Of a DNA stretch of 64,000 bases, positions 34,724 through 43,490 are shown one piece after another. Positions within the stretch are counted from its first letter, which is position 1; each line of letters opens with the position of its first letter. The stretch spans positions 1,410,337-1,474,336 of the forward strand of contig JADDTR010000003.1 of NCBI GenBank assembly GCA_015345905.1, written 5' to 3'. The notes beneath the pieces are model-generated. The model searched no databases and was not told the DNA's origin. It saw nothing but the letters and a program-made list of their open reading frames with translations. Source of the stretch: Aotearoamyces nothofagi (taxonomy: Eukaryota > Ascomycota > Leotiomycetes > Leotiales > Tympanidaceae). The position numbers and the translations under genes were made by a program.

Positions 34724-35834
34724 TTTGGGGCCAGGGATATTGCGAGAAAGGGATGATGATGGAGGAGGGGGATCTTGGATTGTAAAACAGAACTGACATG
34801 GCGTCGAGGACAGAAGGCAATATATATGTAGAAGATCGAGGAATGCGTGGCGGCGCAAGACCCGACGGCTTCAAGACCTGCATCTCGGAGTTAATGGCTA
34901 CGGGCATACCCATTGCCCCTTAGCACAGAGATGCAGAATCGACGTCGGGCGTAAAAGCAGCATTGGTTCAGGGAGCTTCGATAATGGAAGCATATGATAA
35001 TCAGGACGAATGGGGCTTTATCCTGCCGGATTTTACGCTCCGCCGCCCCAAGCGGCCTAGGCGAGTTTTCAGGGAGAATTCACGTGATTCGAGTGATTAG
35101 AGTAGGTGTCAACGAGACTTTTGTAGACTGTAGAGCAGCAGCAACAGCATTTATTTTCAGTGCTAAAGTAGATTATAATAGTAGTTAGAGTATATATATA
35201 AGAAATGATTCTTATCTATGTCTCTGAATCCCGCTGAAAGCGGGAAATTTTTTGCCAAATTCTAAGAATCCGGAGCGTATTGGGAGTGTAAATTTTACCT
35301 CCAGAATAAGTAGAATTTTGGTGAAAAATCGGTGTCAACGAGGAAATTTTACGTTCCGGGCGAGTTTTAGGGGATCTTGGAGTAGAATAGGGCATTTTGG
35401 GAGCGGAATAGGGCATTTTGGGAGCGGAATAGGGTACTTAGTCGTTGGCAACGAGGAATTTAGTGAATGATTTTAAATTTCAGTGTATTGAAAATAAATC
35501 TTAGTGAGTGTAGGCTATCAATTTAGGGCAACATCACTAAAAGTTGTCGCTAAAGTCGTTGTTAACGAGGAATTTAGTGAGTGAAAAAAATCGGCTGAAA
35601 AACACGAAAATCGACAAAAAGTGCAGGTATACCTATGCACTTTTTGGTGCGGCCGCACCATTTTGACCCCTGTTCAAAACTCGGTTTTCCTCGTTGGCAA
35701 CGAGGGTGTATACCTTTAATTATATTTAACATGCAACACTGCTTAAAACAAGCTGTTAAAAGGGAGGATAGTATTTTATAGTATATAACTAATAATAAAA
35801 ATCGTTCAGACCGACTATTTTAATCAAAGTGGTG
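34724..35834. other. Promoter of the oxidoreductase, then left part of the AT-rich palindrome-rich insertion
   Basis: TATATAT near 34822 may serve the oxidoreductase. From about 35020 the DNA changes. GATTTTACGCTCCGC (35031-35045) matches an inverted copy near 40686-40700. A roughly 21-bp repeat, GAATAGGGCATTTTGGGAGCG, follows at 35385-35436, and palindromes of the TCGTTGGCAACGAGG type lie at about 35330, 35442, 35556 and 35690. No gene. Confidence 0.6.
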
Positions 35835-37049
35835 CTACCAACGAGGATTTAAGCTGTTTGTTGCTCGGTATTGACGAGCAATATCCAAGTCCTTTGCCAT
35901 CACCTTTTGTCTCTTCCCTCCTTCCTTAAGATTTGTACAATATAATTCTGAGAAATCCTTAGCTTTCCGAGCAATATCAGCATCCTCTTTATCTAATTCT
36001 ATTCGATATAACCGAATAGCAAGAAGAAGCTTCGTCATGGACGAGGATTCTGGAAAGGTTTCCCAGAAGTGTAGCCAGTTGCAGTGACAAGATACATATA
36101 CATGAAAAATGAACTGAAATGTTCGTTAGCAACGAGGTATTACTTAGATATCTTCAAGTAGTCTCTTACTCTCCAATTACTCCAATGAGTCTTTAACACC
36201 GACCAGATTTTAGAGTAGTTGTCTTTATATAACTCTCTCCAATACTGGAGGGCGATAAATTGATCGTTGACAACGAGTGTTTTCCCAAACTCCCAATTAT
36301 AGATAAGTGATAGTAGTTCATTGATTGCAAAGTATGTACTAGCAGGAGGATTAGAAATATTGATAGATAAAACCTCGCCTTGGATGAAGGAGAAATGCCA
36401 TGATTGATGTATATATAAATCTGGTAGATTCCTCGTTGGCAACGAGGTTTGGGAATGAGGTCTAGACTGAGTGGTAATAGACGGTAGAGTGATAATAGAC
36501 AGTGACTGAACAGTTGATGATTCCTCGTTACTGACGACTCTTTTGTCTCTCTCTAGTAATCTTTTATTGTCTGTAATAAGGAGAGAGAGCCTATAATTTA
36601 ATATCAACTTCTGTAATTAAATATATATAAAAGAATTAATACTTACATTTCTTTATTATATTCCTCACGTGAAAATGACTTTGCNGTGATAATAGACAGT
36701 GACTGAACAGTTGATGATTCCTCGTTACTGACGACTCTTTTGTCTCTCTCTAGTAATCTTTTATTGTCTGTAATAAGGAGAGAGAGCCTATAATTTAATA
36801 TCAACTTCTGTAATTAAATATATATAAAAGAATTAATACTTACATTTCTTTATTATATTCCTCACGTGAAAATGACTTTGCCCACTCTATCATTCTATTT
36901 CTCTCACTTTGTACTCTTGTATCAATGTCATTTAAATTAGAAGACTGAGGGGTAAAGGGTTCTCTTGGTGTTTTCCCAGTTTCAATATCTCGCTGTAACC
37001 GATTAAATGATGTTAATTTAATCGGCTTTTGACTCGGTGTTGACGACAT
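35835..37049 (-). CDS. Orphan protein of the insertion, divergent from the recombinase
   Basis: I reconstruct three exons: 37049-36844, 36590-36170 and 36113-35835, giving about 301 aa. The second junction (GTAAGA donor, CTCGTTGCTAACGAAC branch palindrome, ATTTCAG acceptor) is clear. The first uses GTAAGT and an ATTATAG acceptor and crosses the artificial duplication at 36489-36881, so exon 2 exists twice in the window. The product is charged and helical: basic N-terminus (SSTPSQKPIKLTSFNRLQRD), WHFSFIQGEVLSINISNPPA in the middle, and a C-terminus with LLLAIRLYRIELDKEDADIA and QKVMAKDLDIARQYRA. No known domain. Two palindromes fall inside exons in frame, encoding SLPTR and LVVND. The shared, divergent promoter with the recombinase suggests a joint element. 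Confidence 0.6.
36489..36881. repeat. Assembly artefact: 196-bp exact direct repeat around a single N
   Basis: 36489-36684 and 36686-36881 appear identical, separated by one N at 36685. Both run from GTGATAATAGACAG to AAAATGACTTTGC. The pattern fits two contig ends that overlap but were joined with a placeholder. Confidence 0.9.
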
Positions 37050-37252
37050 AATTGATGAGTCTAAGTAGAGTAGAGTTAAAGTCTCGGTAGTAGCGAGGAT
37101 TAATGCTTGGAAGGCTCGGCAGTAGCGAGGATTTAGGCTAAATGAAAATCCCTACTTGTACCGAGGATTTTCTTCGGTGTTAACGAGGATTAAGGCTAAA
37201 TTGAAACCCTTGTTTACACCGAGGAATTTCCTCGGTGTTAACGAGGATTAGA

Positions 37253-37689
37253 GCTAACCAGATATTTATACTAAGGCAAATAGCTTATCTGATTACCATT
37301 TTCAGTACAGTACTTTTATTAAAGTCTCTATATTAAAATGACTACCTCTATTGATATATTTGAAGGCTTATATACTGTTGATAAAGATGAAGTATTAAAT
37401 GATAATGAAGATCATGAGTTGATCATTGAGCAATTGGAAGCTGATCAAAGATCTGTTGAAATAGCCGTTGNGCTAACCAGATATTTATACTAAGGCAAAT
37501 AGCTTATCTGATTACCATTTTCAGTACAGTACTTTTATTAAAGTCTCTATATTAAAATGACTACCTCTATTGATATATTTGAAGGCTTATATACTGTTGA
37601 TAAAGATGAAGTATTAAATGATAATGAAGATCATGAGTTGATCATTGAGCAATTGGAAGCTGATCAAAGATCTGTTGAAATAGCCGTTG
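37253..37689. repeat. Assembly artefact: 218-bp exact direct repeat around a single N
   Basis: 37253-37470 and 37472-37689 appear identical, separated by one N at 37471. Both run from GCTAACCAGATATT to AATAGCCGTTG. The start codon of the recombinase is therefore present twice, at 37338 and 37557; only the second copy continues. Confidence 0.9.
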
Positions 37690-39182
37690 AGAACGACCTA
37701 TTCCAACAAGGAACATTTGATATTATCAAGTCATCACAAGGTGCTTTAGCAAAAAAGACTCTGGAGGGATATACCTCGTTTGTACCGAGTATTCCTTAAG
37801 TATTTATAACTATTAACAGCTATTTAGATTACACAAAAGCATGATTGAATGGATTACAATAAAGTATAAGACTGAAGGACAGAAGAACCTCAATACAGCA
37901 TCTGGAAAATGTCCTCAGATGATATGTGAATGGATTCGTGATATCTGTAAGGATGAAGTTACAGTATTAGGAGTAAAGCCAATTGGTAAAGGTTCATCCC
38001 GAGCCAAAAAGCTGTTAGACTCGTTGGGAACGAGGGAACGAGTTGCTGGATATTCACATGCACTAAAGATGAGAGCTTCTGCAACTTATTGGTTTGCATT
38101 CTTATGTCCTGAACTTTGTAGTAAAGGAGATTGGTTACAATTAAAAACTGGAGGATGGAGTGGAAATCCTTCATTATCACCAATGGTCTCCTGCTATATA
38201 AGATCTCTAAACAAGAAGAAAGTAGGTAGAGATTACCTCGTTGCCAATGAAGAGATTACCTCGTTGCTAACGAACCTTATTTTAGGTTCTCACTGGTGAG
38301 ATATCAACAAGTGCCCGGGCCTTATCATCAGAAGATCTACAGAAAATGTTCGTCTACAACGAGAAAATCCCTCTTTATCAGTTTGGAAAGAAACTCATTT
38401 ATGATGAGCATTGCTATATCTGGAGTGGTCCAACTTGTCGAAAGATGCTACAAGCAATTTATACACTTGCATTCCAGTGCCTGCTTTGTATAGATGAAGT
38501 ACTTCAAATCCAAGCTCATTATATCCTCGTTATCGACGAGGAAAAGGGACATATCCAACTAAGTCTTAACTTTAGAAAGACAAATCAATATAGCAGTAAG
38601 AATAGTTATAATTCATGTATACTAAGGACTTGTTTCTAACAAAAGAAATAGGAATCAAGCCTTTTCATCTTTATCTTAATCCAAGAGAACCTTTTCTTGA
38701 TCCTGTTCTTGCTTTATTAGAATGGTTTAAGGTATCTATAATTAATGAAGGATATATCTTTCGAAGAATTGATGTCCAAGACAGAGTAACTACAAGGAAT
38801 AAAGCTCTGGTAAGCTTAGAATATCTTCGTTGACAACGACTAAAACCTCTCGTTGCTGACGAGGAAATAGGATCCAAGTACTTTTACAGAGTACTTTCGT
38901 CACAACCTGCTTGATATTGGTTGTGACTATCGGCTATATGGAATACATTCCTTTTGCAGAGGAGGTGCTCAATGGTTATACTCTGAGAAAAGATGGGGTA
39001 TAAGACAGATTTGTAATTGGGGTGGATGGAGTACAAATTGGGATTCAAGTTCTATTATAAGATATCTAATCAGTTGGAATGATGATCCTATACAGCAGCA
39101 AGAGGATTTTATGAATCCAAATTATATAGGAGGTACTAGATGTCAAGTATATGGTAGAGAATGTACTTGTATTGGAAGATAG
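37557..39182 (+). CDS. Crypton-type tyrosine recombinase, probably catalytically damaged
   Basis: Five exons: 37557-37781, 37820-38221, 38286-38595, 38652-38809 and 38871-39182, giving 468 aa. Phases match at every join. The first intron is only 38 bp; the second and fourth carry the palindrome as branch site (CTCGTTGCTAACGAA and CTCGTTGCTGACGAG). Family-like stretches: SHALKMRASATYWFAFL, GEISTSARALSSEDLQKMF, AFQCLLCIDEVLQIQ, IKPFHLYLNPREPFLDPVLA, GYIFRRI, YFRHNLLDIGCDYRLYGIHS, ICNWGGWS, IIRYLISWNDDP, and a C-terminal CxxxxxECTC. His391, Trp418 and the likely nucleophile Tyr430 are present. Where relatives have the two catalytic arginines I read Cys277 and Cys394 (codons TGT, TGC), each one C-to-T step from Arg. 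Such enzymes cut and rejoin DNA to move circular intermediates. The frame is intact. Confidence 0.82.
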
Positions 39183-39609
39183 AAAGTGTAGAGAAATACT
39201 CGTTGGGAACGAGTAATCTAGTCATTTCCCCCTATATCAAATTCTTCGTTGAGAACGAGTAATCTGGTCACTGACTCCTAAGTTGGAATCTTCGTTGACA
39301 ACGAGTAATCTGGTCACTGACTCCTAAGTTGGAATCTTCGTTGAGAACGAGTAATCTGGTCACTGACTCCTAAGTTGGAATCTTTGTTGACAACGAGTAA
39401 TCTAGTCACTGACCCCTAAGTTGGAATCTTCGTTGAGAACGAGTAATCTGGTCACTGACCCCTAAGTTGGAATCCTCGTTGAGAACGAGTAAATAGTACT
39501 TAGTCATAAATGGACATTGTCAAATCTATCGTTGGGAACGAGTATTTTATTCTATACACCTAACTAAGTAAAGCAACGCAAAGTTTCCTCGTCCCCACCG
39601 ACCCTTCTC
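39183..39609. repeat. 46-bp tandem array with a palindrome in each unit
   Basis: Starting about 20 bp after the recombinase stop, units of 46 bp repeat with starts at about 39247, 39293, 39339, 39385, 39431 and 39477, preceded by one diverged copy at 39203. Each unit is TCGTTGAGAACGAGTAATCT followed by GGTCACTGACTCCTAAGTTG and GAATC. The loop alternates between GAG and GAC. Regular spacing and near identity suggest recent amplification. Confidence 0.85.
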
Positions 39610-40526
39610 TCAAATTACTGCCCTACCTATGATAGCATTGCAGGTGGCAGCAGAGCGGCGAGCCCCATCCACCAAATGCTAAGGTAAAGCTCGTTAGTAC
39701 CGAGGATTTCAAGAGGGGACCTACTTACCAACACGGTCATATTGCCGCCTTGGAGAAACTCCAAGGTCTCCCACATCATGGTACGATATGCCGTGTTCAA
39801 GGTGGCCGGGAACTAAAACACTCGTTAGCACCGAAGATTCCAAACACTCGTTAGCACCGAAGATTTTACTTACAGTTCCACCACCAAGAGCATAGACACA
39901 AAGTGCCACAAACTCCACGGCCGCCAACTTCCACTCACAGCCGCAAGGCAGGAAGTCTTCTAGGTCATTGTCTACAGGAATATCAAGAAGCTCGTTAGCA
40001 ACGAGCTTTTCGCAAAATTCTCTCTAAGTACTTACTGGCAGCTTCCACCGACATGGGTGCATTGTTCTTCCGGCCTAAAAGCTCGTTAGCAACGAGTCTT
40101 TTTATTTTAGGGAAGTTTGACTTACAAGTGTAGCACTTGGCCAGACTTCCGGCACGAGGATCTCCATTGGCCTTAAGTGGCCAGTATACACGGCTAATTC
40201 CTCGTTAGCAACGAGTCTTTCGAAAATGGGTAAGTTTACTTACTGCAGATTTTCCTCCCGGCAGCCAGGATTGGAGGGGGGGCAGGCAGCAGTAGAGCCC
40301 CAACGGGCAAGGTAGGCAGCGCAGCGTTGGCTGAAAAGCTCGTTAGCAACGAGTCTTTCAAAATGGTAAGTTCACTTATGCAGGGGGTTGGTGCTGGAGG
40401 ACTGCAGGGTCCCAGCCGGTCATGGTGACTGCAGCGGAATTGCCAGAGGCAGGAAAGGTATAAGTAAAAGGCACTTCAAAAGCCTCGTTAGCAACGAACA
40501 AAAAAAGGAATTCAAACTCACTTACT
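39610..40526 (-). CDS. Cys-rich orphan protein with seven palindrome-bearing introns
   Basis: Exons on the minus strand: 40526 (single A of the split ATG), 40473-40380, 40330-40244, 40193-40126, 40074-40036, 39971-39874, 39812-39729 and 39678-39610. The product is 179 aa and the frame is kept at all seven joins. Introns are 49-64 bp, mostly GTAAGT, each with G/A-CTAACGAG as branch site, ending TTTAG, TTAG or CAG (GAAG in intron 1). Protein landmarks: GNSAAVTMTGWDPAVLQHQ, QRCAAYLARWGSTAACPPSN, NLHRVYWPLKANGDPRAG, KCYTCRKNNAPMSVEAA, DLEDFLPCGCEWKLAAVEFV and RTMMWETLEFLQGGNM. No family recognised. Intron 2 begins ATAAGT instead of GTAAGT, one G-to-A step, which may block splicing. If the first exon is untranslated or wrong, Met18 (MTGWDPA) is the alternative start. 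Confidence 0.65.
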
Positions 40527-41760
40527 GTTGGCGGTGGTGGTGGTGGTGGCGGAGTTGTTTTTGGAGAGGGGAAAGGTAGGAGTTGGGTCTATAAAATATT
40601 ACACGCATACATTCAAGGTCACATGCGCATGCACATTCAGGGTCACATGATCAAAATTTTAGTGTGTCGGGTAGCGCAGATTTCGGGCGCGGAGCGTAAA
40701 ATCTGCCAGAGAATGAGTAGAAGAATGCCGCTGAGAACGGGGGCTCGGAGGAACTATGCTCCGACGCCCAAGACCGTGGCGCTCCAGAAGGTATAAATAC
40801 CGGAGTCTTAGAGGACCTTTAATAACATCATGGCATTCCTCCACTGACCAGATTTCCTTTCTTTTCTGCCGCTTTAACTCGGTGTTGAATGTGATGTATT
40901 TAAATACCTTAGCCCGATAATGTTATACGAACGGAAGTTAGCGCCGATTACTCGAGAGATAAGATTTATACTACTGCGCAGTACAAACGCAGGGGTCAGG
41001 AAAGCAGCCTCAGGCCCTTCATAAAGCTGGAACGCTGCTATTGGGTCACGGCCAAGAGCGGAGATATATAACGCCGCGCCCCGTACACAACATTACATCT
41101 ATAACAATCAGCCGGGCTGGTCTTGGGAGAAGTCGCAGAAATACTATATACGAGAATAGAGAACGCATCTTTTTCTAATTGCTGGCAAATCCCCGGTTCG
41201 GTGTCGTCGACGCCCTCAAAAGTGCTGAACCGAACGCCTTCCCGCTCTAGAGATAGTATGCAAGCTTCTGTCTTATGTCCAAGGAGAAGAACAACTCAGA
41301 TCCCTTGCTTGCAGCTGGCGAGAAAATGACGGGTAGCTGTACATCCTTCGTCGCATCGCCGTAGGCTATGTTCAAGGCGAAGGCATCGGTATAAGCATCT
41401 TGGGCTTGGCTGATATCATCTGCCCAGTCACTTGTGCACTATATCAAGCGGTTTTGCCAACCCATGAGGTCCAGTAAACGTAACGGTGCCATGGATGACC
41501 GCTGACGATGACCTCTGACGGCATAGCATGAAGTGAACAAACACGGCCGTTGCCATGATATCACGGAACCGAATAGGAGAGGACGTCCAGCGCTTAGGTC
41601 AGGTGGACCTATTTCCGAGGCACGAGCGAAACTCCGGTGTCGCGTCTATGCAGCATCAACCACCTATATAAAAAGGGAAGCACTCCTACTCTAAGGGCAC
41701 TCCAAGAATCGGTCTATATCTTCTAGTCACAGATATAGCTATATAAGCGGTTCTGAAAAA
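40527..41760. other. Flank of the insertion, no gene seen
   Basis: This includes the upstream side of the Cys-rich gene, a repeated AAGGTCACATG(C/A) pair near 40615 and 40640, and the inverted GCGGAGCGTAAAATC near 40686-40700. A plus-strand frame at 41123-41329 is unsupported. Confidence 0.4.
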
Positions 41761-43490
41761 CCACTCGTTGGAGACGAGCTCATCTTGCTGTCTTGTCGCC
41801 AGACCAAGGTTTCTAGAAAGAGGATCAGTACAGTAGCTGAACTCATTAAGGACCTCACCTATTCTATAGGCACAAGGAGCATTATTCGATATTATAGGTA
41901 GACAGCACTTATAATATTAAAAACGAAAAAAAAACGAAGAAAATTAAAAAAATTAAGCATATTATCCTTATATCTCTTCAAGCATATACCAAGCAACACA
42001 AGAGGCCCTACAACAGAACCTCAAGTATCTGCACAACCTTGTCCATCGCGTAAAAAAAGGATTTCCATAGGGATTATCCAAGGCGGAGGCTCAGATCCCG
42101 CTCCTTCCAGTGCACCAATCCGTAAACCGCGAGCTGGGATCGATGATCGCCCGTCTCACGACAGCGTCTCGTAGTTCCGCAGGGCCTCAGCTACAGGAGC
42201 TGACAGCAACCCAAAAAGCCAAAACGGACATATGCATCACAGCCCCATTCAGGCGCTCTCGCCACAAGCACACCGCATCTTATCGACAGCGGAATTACGG
42301 GTGTCGGGGAGATCCGCTGGATCTGCAGGCTGAGCAGCCGGGAGGAGTGGTTTGTCCTGTAGCTAGCGCTGCAGCCCGTCGTGACTGCATGGTTCGGGAG
42401 CTGAGAGCGATGGCTCTCTCGGTCTCTACCCTCTCGACATGCCGAAAAGGAGCGTCCGCCTCAAAAGTCCAGAGACGAGCCGCGGCGAGCGGGACCTCGA
42501 TGCCCCCTTCCGCTTGTTCGACGGCGGCCACGTGAGCTGTCTCCGCCACAACCCAGCCAGCCGTCGTTCGAGCTTCTGATTCCCGGTCTAGGAGCCTGCT
42601 GAGGAGCACGCTTCTTAGTAAGTATATAATAGGTTCTGGCTCTGGCCGGCAGGCTGTTGGTGGTGGTTCCCAGCCTGGGCCGAACTTCAATCTCGAGCCA
42701 TGTCGAGAGCTCAGAGATAGAGGTCAGCGGCAAGCATCCGACTGGGGAGACGGCGTTTGACCTGCAACCTGGCTAGCGAGGTTGGAACGCATTGTGCTAG
42801 ACAACCGGAGTTTGATATGAGAACTCGGCCACTGGGGTCGCTGAGGTAGGTTCACTAGACACAGCGCCGCTGGGGGTTCGCTGGTGAAGCTCTGGGTCGT
42901 ATCAGGTATTACTGTATACGGAGGCTGATTTTTGAGGAATCTCCATAGAGGAATTCATCCTATTTACATAGCCCAAGAAGCGTTGTATATAAAGCTCTAG
43001 GGGCTCACCAGAGCCTCTGCTATACAGGGATATATACTGAGGAACATAGAACGCTTAGTTATATATAACTTCTTATCCATGGCCAGCTCTCACGCCAACA
43101 GGGCCTTCGGTATTATAATTTATATATCTGATATTCAAATTCAAAAGATCCAACCCCCAAATCCACAACATACAAGCAACTTATACTACAATATTATATA
43201 GGTAAAAAAAACAATCATCTCCCCCTTTTTTATTTTGAAATTTATCCCATTTTGCGCCCTGTCTGGCTTGCGAAAAGGATTATATACCCTGTTCTCTGCG
43301 TCTAGCCTTACGATATAACGAGCACCTGTACTTGAGGTGCTCGTCAGGGAGAACGATAGCACTGTTAGTCCTCTCTCACTATCCTCTGGATACACGAGCC
43401 GGCTCGGGCGATTATAGCAGTGGAGAGGGGAGGCTATAACCTTCTTTGCAGAAGGCGGGCGTGGAGGCCGAGAGTTCAAGCATGTCTGTA
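41761..43490. other. Probable degenerate transposable-element DNA
   Basis: A palindrome (CTCGTTGGAGACGAG, about 41763) is followed by DNA whose translation is broken across frames. Pieces such as AELIKDLTYSIGTRSIIRYY (41837-) and QEALQQNLKYLHNLVHRVKK (about 42000-42060) look like remnants of one protein that no longer has an open frame. A 97-codon minus frame at 43186-43479 may be another remnant. The element class cannot be told. Confidence 0.35.
43319..43343. repeat. Hairpin with 9-bp arms
   Basis: CGAGCACCT and AGGTGCTCG flank a short centre. The hairpin is isolated, with no T-run or other signal beside it. Confidence 0.6.

Follow-up and report, generated by a model that had tools for sequence, protein, structure and literature searches.

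Among described mobile elements, the closest parallel to the locus reported here is VANDAL21 of Arabidopsis, whose VANC21 protein binds a nine-base motif. Only in VANDAL21 is this motif dense; it occupies introns as well as intergenic and terminal regions, and builds up through tandem repetition (PMC5735166, PMC10398659). Cryptons typically have short terminal direct repeats (PMC3212892). Some fungal introner-like elements and sister stwintrons hold inverted repeats or a 10-nt palindrome (PMC4457414, PMC8469720), and the short repeats of fungal mitochondria include PstI palindromes, MUSE1 and double-hairpin elements (PMC7218506). Fungal transposons with TET/JBP dioxygenase genes have also been described (PMC12730594), and we read these transposon-borne genes as countering silencing. 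This text concerns a 64,000-nucleotide stretch of the Aotearoamyces nothofagi genome (contig JADDTR010000003.1; hereafter the window), in which a transposon encoding a tyrosine recombinase carries a 23-bp dyad dispersed through its exons, introns and spacers. From the make-up and distribution of the dyads, we lean towards the view that each is bound by a dimer of a DNA-binding protein, probably the element's own and comparable to VANC, and that the introns of the element reuse these sites as branch points.

A dyad array within one transposon

A preliminary description of this DNA drew attention to a palindromic motif, which is real and far above chance: with up to three mismatches to CTCGTTGCTAACGAG, the whole window holds 50 matches over both strands, on each of which a near-palindromic site can match, against a shuffle mean of 1.41 and a maximum of 4. 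After removal of two assembly duplications (see below), the cleaned sequence of 5,314 bp, i.e., the element and a few flanking bases, contains 50 sites with up to three mismatches to CTCGKTNNNAMCGAG. These comprise 12, 20, 11 and 7 sites with 0, 1, 2 and 3 mismatches, where shuffles give 0, 0.05, 0.35 and 3.6, and the sites with three mismatches are partly chance. The sites with at most two mismatches number 43, compared with 0.4 in shuffles: 14 lie in introns (that of intron Y1 across the donor), nine in coding exons and 20 in spacers. The palindrome had been presented as the mark of an intron family, a description that does not hold with 29 of the 43 sites outside introns and nine of them in coding sequence. 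Introns have the densest sites, at about 20 per kb, followed by spacers with 12 and exons with 3. There are 45 instances of the hexamer AACGAG, compared with 1.9 in shuffles. In 5-kb scans for gapped 5-base palindromes over the window and six loci, TCGTT-N3-AACGA peaks at 16, the median being 2 and the runners-up, at 8 and 6, being AT-rich palindromes of relic loci.

The 15-bp palindrome first proposed as the unit proves to be the core of a longer one. The full unit is WWnn-CTCGTT-NNN-AACGAG-nnWW (23 bp), or WWnn-CTCG(T/G)T-RNY-A(A/C)CGAG-nnWW in its variable form, with a near-invariant core, TCG-N7-CGA, across the 34 sites kept for flank analysis once nine of the 43 had been dropped as tandem-array copies. 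Two W positions on each side, past two free bases, lie one helical turn from the centre. At these positions, picked after inspection of the flank profile, A or T accounts for 131 of 136 bases, compared with 153 of 272 at more distant positions (Fisher 1.2e-19, sites being treated as independent). The bias is present in exons (35/36 vs 37/72), introns (46/48 vs 61/96) and spacers (50/52 vs 55/104); it is absent from chance matches elsewhere in the window (126/248 near vs 257/496 far) and, by eye, from isolated matches on C8, on C12 and at 41764. At a cut-off of 12, a matrix of the 23-bp unit, trained on the element's own sites, finds 45 sites inside the element and two across the remaining 57.9 kb of the window. 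What the flanks have in common is a class (A or T) and not fixed letters, and the arms vary independently, with no covariation between them. For these reasons, the symmetric core and its A/T-class flanks resemble the footprint expected for the site of a dimeric DNA-binding protein; such a unit is not what one would expect from the copying of an insert or from an RNA hairpin.

The element that contains these sites is bounded as follows.

35008..40714, no strand: transposon, with ends common to the copies on C31, C25, C23, C37, C16 and C42
35008..35011, plus strand: GAAT at the left terminus, a short terminal direct repeat, in 4 of 4 left ends examined
40711..40714, plus strand: GAAT at the right terminus, in 5 of 5 right ends examined
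35023..35043, plus strand: imperfect subterminal inverted repeat, left
40689..40709, minus strand: imperfect subterminal inverted repeat, right

The block had been placed at 35200..41780. Its confinement to one insertion is borne out, and its limits shift to 35008-40714. A palindrome at 41764-41778, CTCGTTGGAGACGAG, thereby falls about 1 kb outside the element; it lacks A/T flanks and is probably a chance occurrence. In the window copy, the inverted repeats are 21 bp long and 19/21 identical, and lie 15 and 5 bp inside the element ends. No empty target site was seen among the four left and five right ends examined. Other copies occur in the same assembly: that on C31 is full length, those on C25 and C23 are truncated by contig ends, and those on C37, C16 and C42 are more heavily mutated pieces with 73-78% identity over their aligning parts. 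Single Ns stand at 36685 and 37471 of the window, each between exact duplications (196 and 218 bp). Such exact copies flank single Ns and have no counterpart in C31, so that the repeats spanning 36489-36881 and 37253-37689 are probably assembly duplications, that is, unmerged contig overlaps. Without them, the transposon measures 5,291 bp (about 5.3 kb).

Since tyrosine recombinases bind inverted repeats and the element encodes one, the dyads could in principle be recombination or accessory sites of this enzyme. The termini, however, carry GAAT and a different inverted repeat, not the dyad, and typical Crypton repeats are 11-13 bp long around spacers of 6-8 bp (PMC3212892). It can also be reasoned that crossover sites placed inside the element at every 100 bp would lead to its deletion. 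We regard this role as very unlikely.

The sites outside introns are distributed as follows; that at 36524 is present twice in the window through one of the assembly duplications.

35102..35815, no strand: left spacer, six sites (35102, 35328, 35441, 35555, 35690, 35801)
35864..35878, minus strand: exonic site, gene B
36263..36277, minus strand: exonic site, gene B
36432..36446, minus strand: exonic site, gene B, no mismatch
36524..36538, minus strand: exonic site, gene B (artefact copy at 36721)
36989..37003, minus strand: exonic site, gene B
37033..37047, minus strand: exonic site at the gene B start codon
37083..37245, no strand: interval between gene B and the recombinase gene, five sites (37083, 37115, 37173, 37209, 37231), partly in a 58-bp tandem repeat
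37464: exonic site with three mismatches, its coordinate falling in an artefact copy
38020..38034, plus strand: exonic site, recombinase, no mismatch
38349..38363, plus strand: exonic site, recombinase, aligning ungapped to homologues
38526..38540, plus strand: exonic site, recombinase
39199..39489, no strand: 46-bp tandem array with one site per unit, seven sites; fewer units in C31 and C25
39528..39542, no strand: spacer site
39588..39602, no strand: spacer site, two mismatches

Altogether, four tandem arrays hold sites, with units of 58, 46, 23 and 26 bp. The left spacer also contains, at 35385-35434, a 21-bp tandem repeat without the dyad, in 2.4 copies in the window and 3.2 in C31.

Modelled introns and the loop of the dyad

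Three genes were modelled in the element.

37557..39182, plus strand: tyrosine recombinase gene, five exons; spliced frame, homologues, and Cre by profile
39610..40526, minus strand: gene A, eight exons, a 179-aa Cys-rich protein whose start codon is split by intron A1; open spliced frame
35835..37049, minus strand: gene B, three exons, a 301-aa protein; spliced frame

The 179-codon frame of gene A is open across its eight exons once all seven introns are removed, and the 301-codon frame of gene B is open over its three exons. Searches gave no homologue for either protein (0/53 candidates for A, 0/463 for B) and no Pfam family above the cut-off. Those for the recombinase used an earlier splice model, which differs at introns Y1 and Y3: they returned 37 homologues at E up to 0.01 and a match of a 17-sequence recombinase profile to Cre (E 7e-05), while no Pfam family, including the GCR1_C domain that marks CryptonF, was found at E up to 1. 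Physcia stellaris, a lichen fungus, supplies the best homologue (40% identity, E 1.3e-76), and many others are Agaricomycete proteins named DNA breaking-rejoining enzyme. No related recombinase locus was confirmed among viral contigs. Aligned to its homologues, the final model has no gap of its own at Y2, Y3 or Y4, and Y1, whose ends are tentative, is located in a poorly aligned stretch. The window recombinase may be inactive, because Cys occupies two positions at which Arg is found in 13/16 and 13/13 of the homologues that reach them; the first change is common to P0009 and P0033 and the second to P0020.

Thirteen introns were modelled in these genes from the sequence alone, by open frames and the recombinase alignment.

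37782..37819, plus strand: intron Y1, site 37775-37789 across the donor
38222..38285, plus strand: intron Y2, sites 38237-38251 and 38260-38274 (branch); 23-bp unit in two copies, about three in C31
38596..38651, plus strand: intron Y3, degenerate site 38629-38643 (three mismatches) at the branch
38810..38870, plus strand: intron Y4, sites 38826-38840 and 38849-38863 (branch)
40474..40525, minus strand: intron A1, branch site 40484-40498
40331..40379, minus strand: intron A2, branch site 40339-40353; donor ATAAGT; near-copy of A3
40194..40243, minus strand: intron A3, branch site 40201-40215
40075..40125, minus strand: intron A4, branch site 40082-40096
39972..40035, minus strand: intron A5, site 39991-40005, with its branch A 23 nt upstream of the intron end (hand count)
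39813..39873, minus strand: intron A6, sites 39821-39835 (branch) and 39847-39861, a 26-bp tandem pair
39679..39728, minus strand: intron A7, branch site 39690-39704
36788..36843, minus strand: intron B1, no site; its second copy, 36591-36646, is an assembly duplication
36114..36169, minus strand: intron B2, branch site 36122-36136

The donor of A2 reads ATAAGT instead of GTAAGT in the window, C31 and C25 copies alike. The preliminary description had counted the palindrome in ten of 13 introns, once across the donor, and at the branch in nine. The 13 introns, the donor case (Y1) and the branch role are retained, and the counts rise: 12 of the 13 hold a site, B1 being without one and that of Y3 having three mismatches, and the site would supply the branch in eleven (B2, Y2-Y4 and A1-A7). 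The predicted branch A lies 11-15 nt upstream of the intron end in ten of these, and at 23 nt in A5.

The usual branch consensus of filamentous ascomycetes is RCTAAC. Most sites have RNY and then AAC at their centre, so that the choice of CT for NY would turn this into RCTAAC, and a site just upstream of a 3′ splice site could then serve as a branch. A branch-type loop, NCTRAC, is directly observed in 12 of the 15 sites of the predicted introns and in one of the 35 others, where it is antisense; with at most two mismatches, the figures are 11/14 and 1/29. Because branch-type loops concentrate in the intron sites, it appears likely that only the loop answers to splicing, while something else maintains the arms everywhere. 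We infer that introns reuse sites, rather than introns creating them.

The opposite order is that of introner-type gain, in which the palindrome belongs to a small mobile intron that spread within the genes of the element. It could account for a site in 12 of the 13 modelled introns, at the branch in eleven, and for the likeness of certain introns. A2 and A3 are near-copies almost from end to end (p 0.0005 by permutation; none of the 45 pairs compared, drawn from A1-A5, A7, Y2-Y4 and B2, is lower); A3-A5, A3-A4, A2-A4, A2-A5 and A2-A7 also fall below p 0.05, uncorrected. As A2 and A3 match along their length while their adjoining exons are, by eye, not alike, intron copying or conversion has occurred in gene A, and the homogenisation suggested in the preliminary description thus finds an instance. 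Its introner origin fares less well: no pair with Y2, Y3, Y4 or B2 falls below p 0.1 outside the site; the repeat unit does not coincide with the intron, most sites lying outside introns; and the A/T flanks are equally strict in exons, spacers and introns, the loop alone differing. Together with the restriction of the pattern to element copies and the comparison of these copies, presented below, this leaves introner-type gain unlikely.

A hairpin around the branch A had also been proposed, and the dyads might in that case regulate splicing as RNA structures. A fold of -4.1 kcal/mol is predicted for CUCGUUGCUAACGAG, and shuffles fold less well than introns A2 and A4 (z -2.57 and -2.71; A3, -1.18). 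The arms, however, do not covary. Of the 43 sites, 16 vary at pair 5/11 and none of these shows compensation to G-C, although free variation of the arms would itself give only one or two such cases. The stem would in addition pair the branch A, and 20 of the 43 sites lie in spacers. This explanation is weakened to the point where we give it almost no credence.

Confinement and history of the sites

The exact 23-bp pattern WWNNNTCGKTRNYAMCGANNNWW, which only 17 of the window's sites match, occurs at 25 places in the 25.5-Mb assembly, and all 25 are in copies of the element (17 in the window, three in C23, two in C25 and three in C31); the reversed control gives seven. The intron-type pattern has seven matches genome-wide, five in the window and two in C31, and again all are in element copies. 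With up to one mismatch, CTCGTTNNNAACGAG is found at 88 places, against 81 for its reversed control; among the matches listed, the 11 without mismatch are all inside element copies. The enrichment beyond this locus that the preliminary description looked for is thus seen in other copies of the same element and nowhere else in the genome. A genome-wide introner is rejected by these counts.

Confinement also bears on the possibility that a host protein, such as a transcription or silencing factor, and not a protein of the element, binds the sites. All the evidence for a protein-binding dyad applies equally to such a factor, and genes A and B encode no known DNA-binding domain. It would be odd for a host factor, however, to have the exact 23-bp pattern nowhere else in the assembly; looser host sites are possible. 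We consider a host factor an improbable candidate.

Differences between copies are of the kind left by repeat-induced point mutation: going from the window copy to the other one, C to T and G to A changes make up 412 of 442 differences in C31, 342 of 365 in C25 and 141 of 148 in C23, and only 17 transversions separate the window copy from C31 over 5,217 positions. The window copy is the least mutated of the four. By context, mutation rates in C31 are 37% for CA, 35% for CG, 15% for CC and 2% for CT. Sites of the window are found at the same places in C31, C25 and C23, ungapped in 88 of 93 comparisons; the five gapped comparisons are all within the 46-bp array. In C37, C16 and C42, no site with at most two mismatches is left in the aligned parts, and introns A1-A4 of C16 show decayed forms by eye. 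The preliminary description had called for loci with and without the introns to be compared; the three aligned copies show no difference in intron presence or absence, and their sites are colinear apart from tandem units. The dispersed sites are older than the copies compared.

Tandem duplication is a demonstrated route of site multiplication, because the copy number of units differs between element copies: the 46-bp array is shorter in C31 and C25, and intron Y2 of C31 has an extra 23-bp unit. Whether dispersed sites arose by insertion can be considered in the recombinase exons. Rickettsia palindromic elements are ultra-short mobile palindromes, and an element of this kind, or one like the fungal mitochondrial palindromes, could have inserted anywhere in the transposon. 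The presence of sites in exons, introns and spacers alike agrees with this, as does exonic site 38020, which overlaps the last part of a run of eight residues where all 16 homologue rows have a gap (P0005 starts later) and looks inserted rather than evolved in place. By contrast, site 38349 aligns ungapped over a nearly invariant Asn and looks to have evolved by substitution, and no flanking target duplication was found in 125 tests of boundaries and lengths (best p 0.042). Moreover, only tandem units differ between the window copy and C31, C25 and C23, and the exact 23-bp pattern has no match outside the element. A mobile palindrome is accordingly given little weight.

Proposed self-recognition and the described systems

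In the mechanism that we propose, each of the approximately 45 dyads that recur through the tyrosine-recombinase transposon would most likely be bound by a dimer of a DNA-binding protein, and the element would thereby mark its own DNA along its whole length. The protein is probably element-encoded, with the products of genes A and B as candidates; the small Cys-rich product of gene A is a lead only. Tandem-repeat units would account for at least part of the increase in sites, and the introns would carry sites with a branch-type loop since these double as branch points. The purpose that we favour is self-recognition, serving either openness against silencing, in the manner of VANC and VANDAL elements, or assembly for excision. 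More tentatively, a VANC-like protein may coat the element through its dyads, even the exonic ones, so that a docking code and a splicing code are superimposed; we hold this as a possibility short of an even chance. The sequence itself shows the array, the extended symmetric unit common to exons, introns and spacers, its restriction to this element, the distinct loop of the sites in predicted introns and the changes in tandem-unit number; splicing itself, binding, the identity of the protein and the purpose are inferred.

Several observations weigh against this reading. Proteins A and B have no recognisable DNA-binding domain, in keeping with their lack of homologues and Pfam matches. VANC motifs are mainly noncoding and in one orientation, while here nine sites are exonic and the motif is a dyad. 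Sites lose C/G to T/A at about the same rate as other sequence (78/370 vs 334/1712 in C31, 57/205 vs 285/1091 in C25, 27/114 vs 114/515 in C23), and for this reason selection between copies is not demonstrable. The Fisher tests assume independent sites although A2/A3 and the A6 pair are duplicates. The apparent insertion of site 38020 is a further such point, as is intron copying or conversion in gene A, which points opposite to the reuse of sites by introns. Finally, regular spacing of the sites is not beyond random (p 0.11-0.33). Chromatin phasing by regularly spaced sites was rejected, the spacing not being significant.

To our knowledge, the VANDALs of Arabidopsis are the only transposons labelled by a private DNA code. 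The letter strings of the motif had no match in the open-access literature, a corpus that leaves preprints and most subscription journals outside, and among the matches listed there for palindromes, fungal recombinases, introners, branch points and fungal anti-silencing, nothing corresponded. If the proposal is true, the element would be a second, independent case of a self-labelling transposon, in fungi and with sites in exons and introns alike; code co-evolution could be tested in organisms with a substantial body of work on repeat-induced point mutation and heterochromatin, and a direct route would lead from a protein-binding site to a branch point.

Elements of the VANDAL superfamily have a Mutator-type transposase. 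Membership in that superfamily was rejected, as the transposition protein here is a tyrosine recombinase, and the element is at most an analogue. The likeness to VANDAL21 lies in a short motif that is dense in one transposon family, in introns, spacers and terminal regions, and rare elsewhere, and in tandem repeats that carry the motif and vary in number between copies. Measured against the mainly noncoding placement of the VANC motif, 34 of the 43 sites are noncoding and nine exonic. Unlike VANDAL21, the present element is fungal and has a tyrosine recombinase; its motif is a dyad, occurs also in coding exons and overlaps branch sites; and no VANC-like protein was found. Cryptons share with it a tyrosine recombinase and a short direct repeat at both termini, and the terminal GAAT fits the encoded enzyme in this respect. 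It differs from them in the inverted repeats near its ends, its two extra genes, the absence of a detected GCR1_C domain and a recombinase nearest to Physcia stellaris and Agaricomycete proteins. Like fungal introner-like elements and sister stwintrons, it has repeated introns; those are families of similar introns at new gene positions in the genome, whereas here only A2 and A3 are clearly alike beyond the site, sites are mostly outside introns and the intron-type pattern matches only element copies. Fungal mitochondrial repeats are likewise very short, dispersed and in part palindromic, and are described as mobile; the dyads reported here are nuclear, belong to one transposon only and bear no insertion signature.

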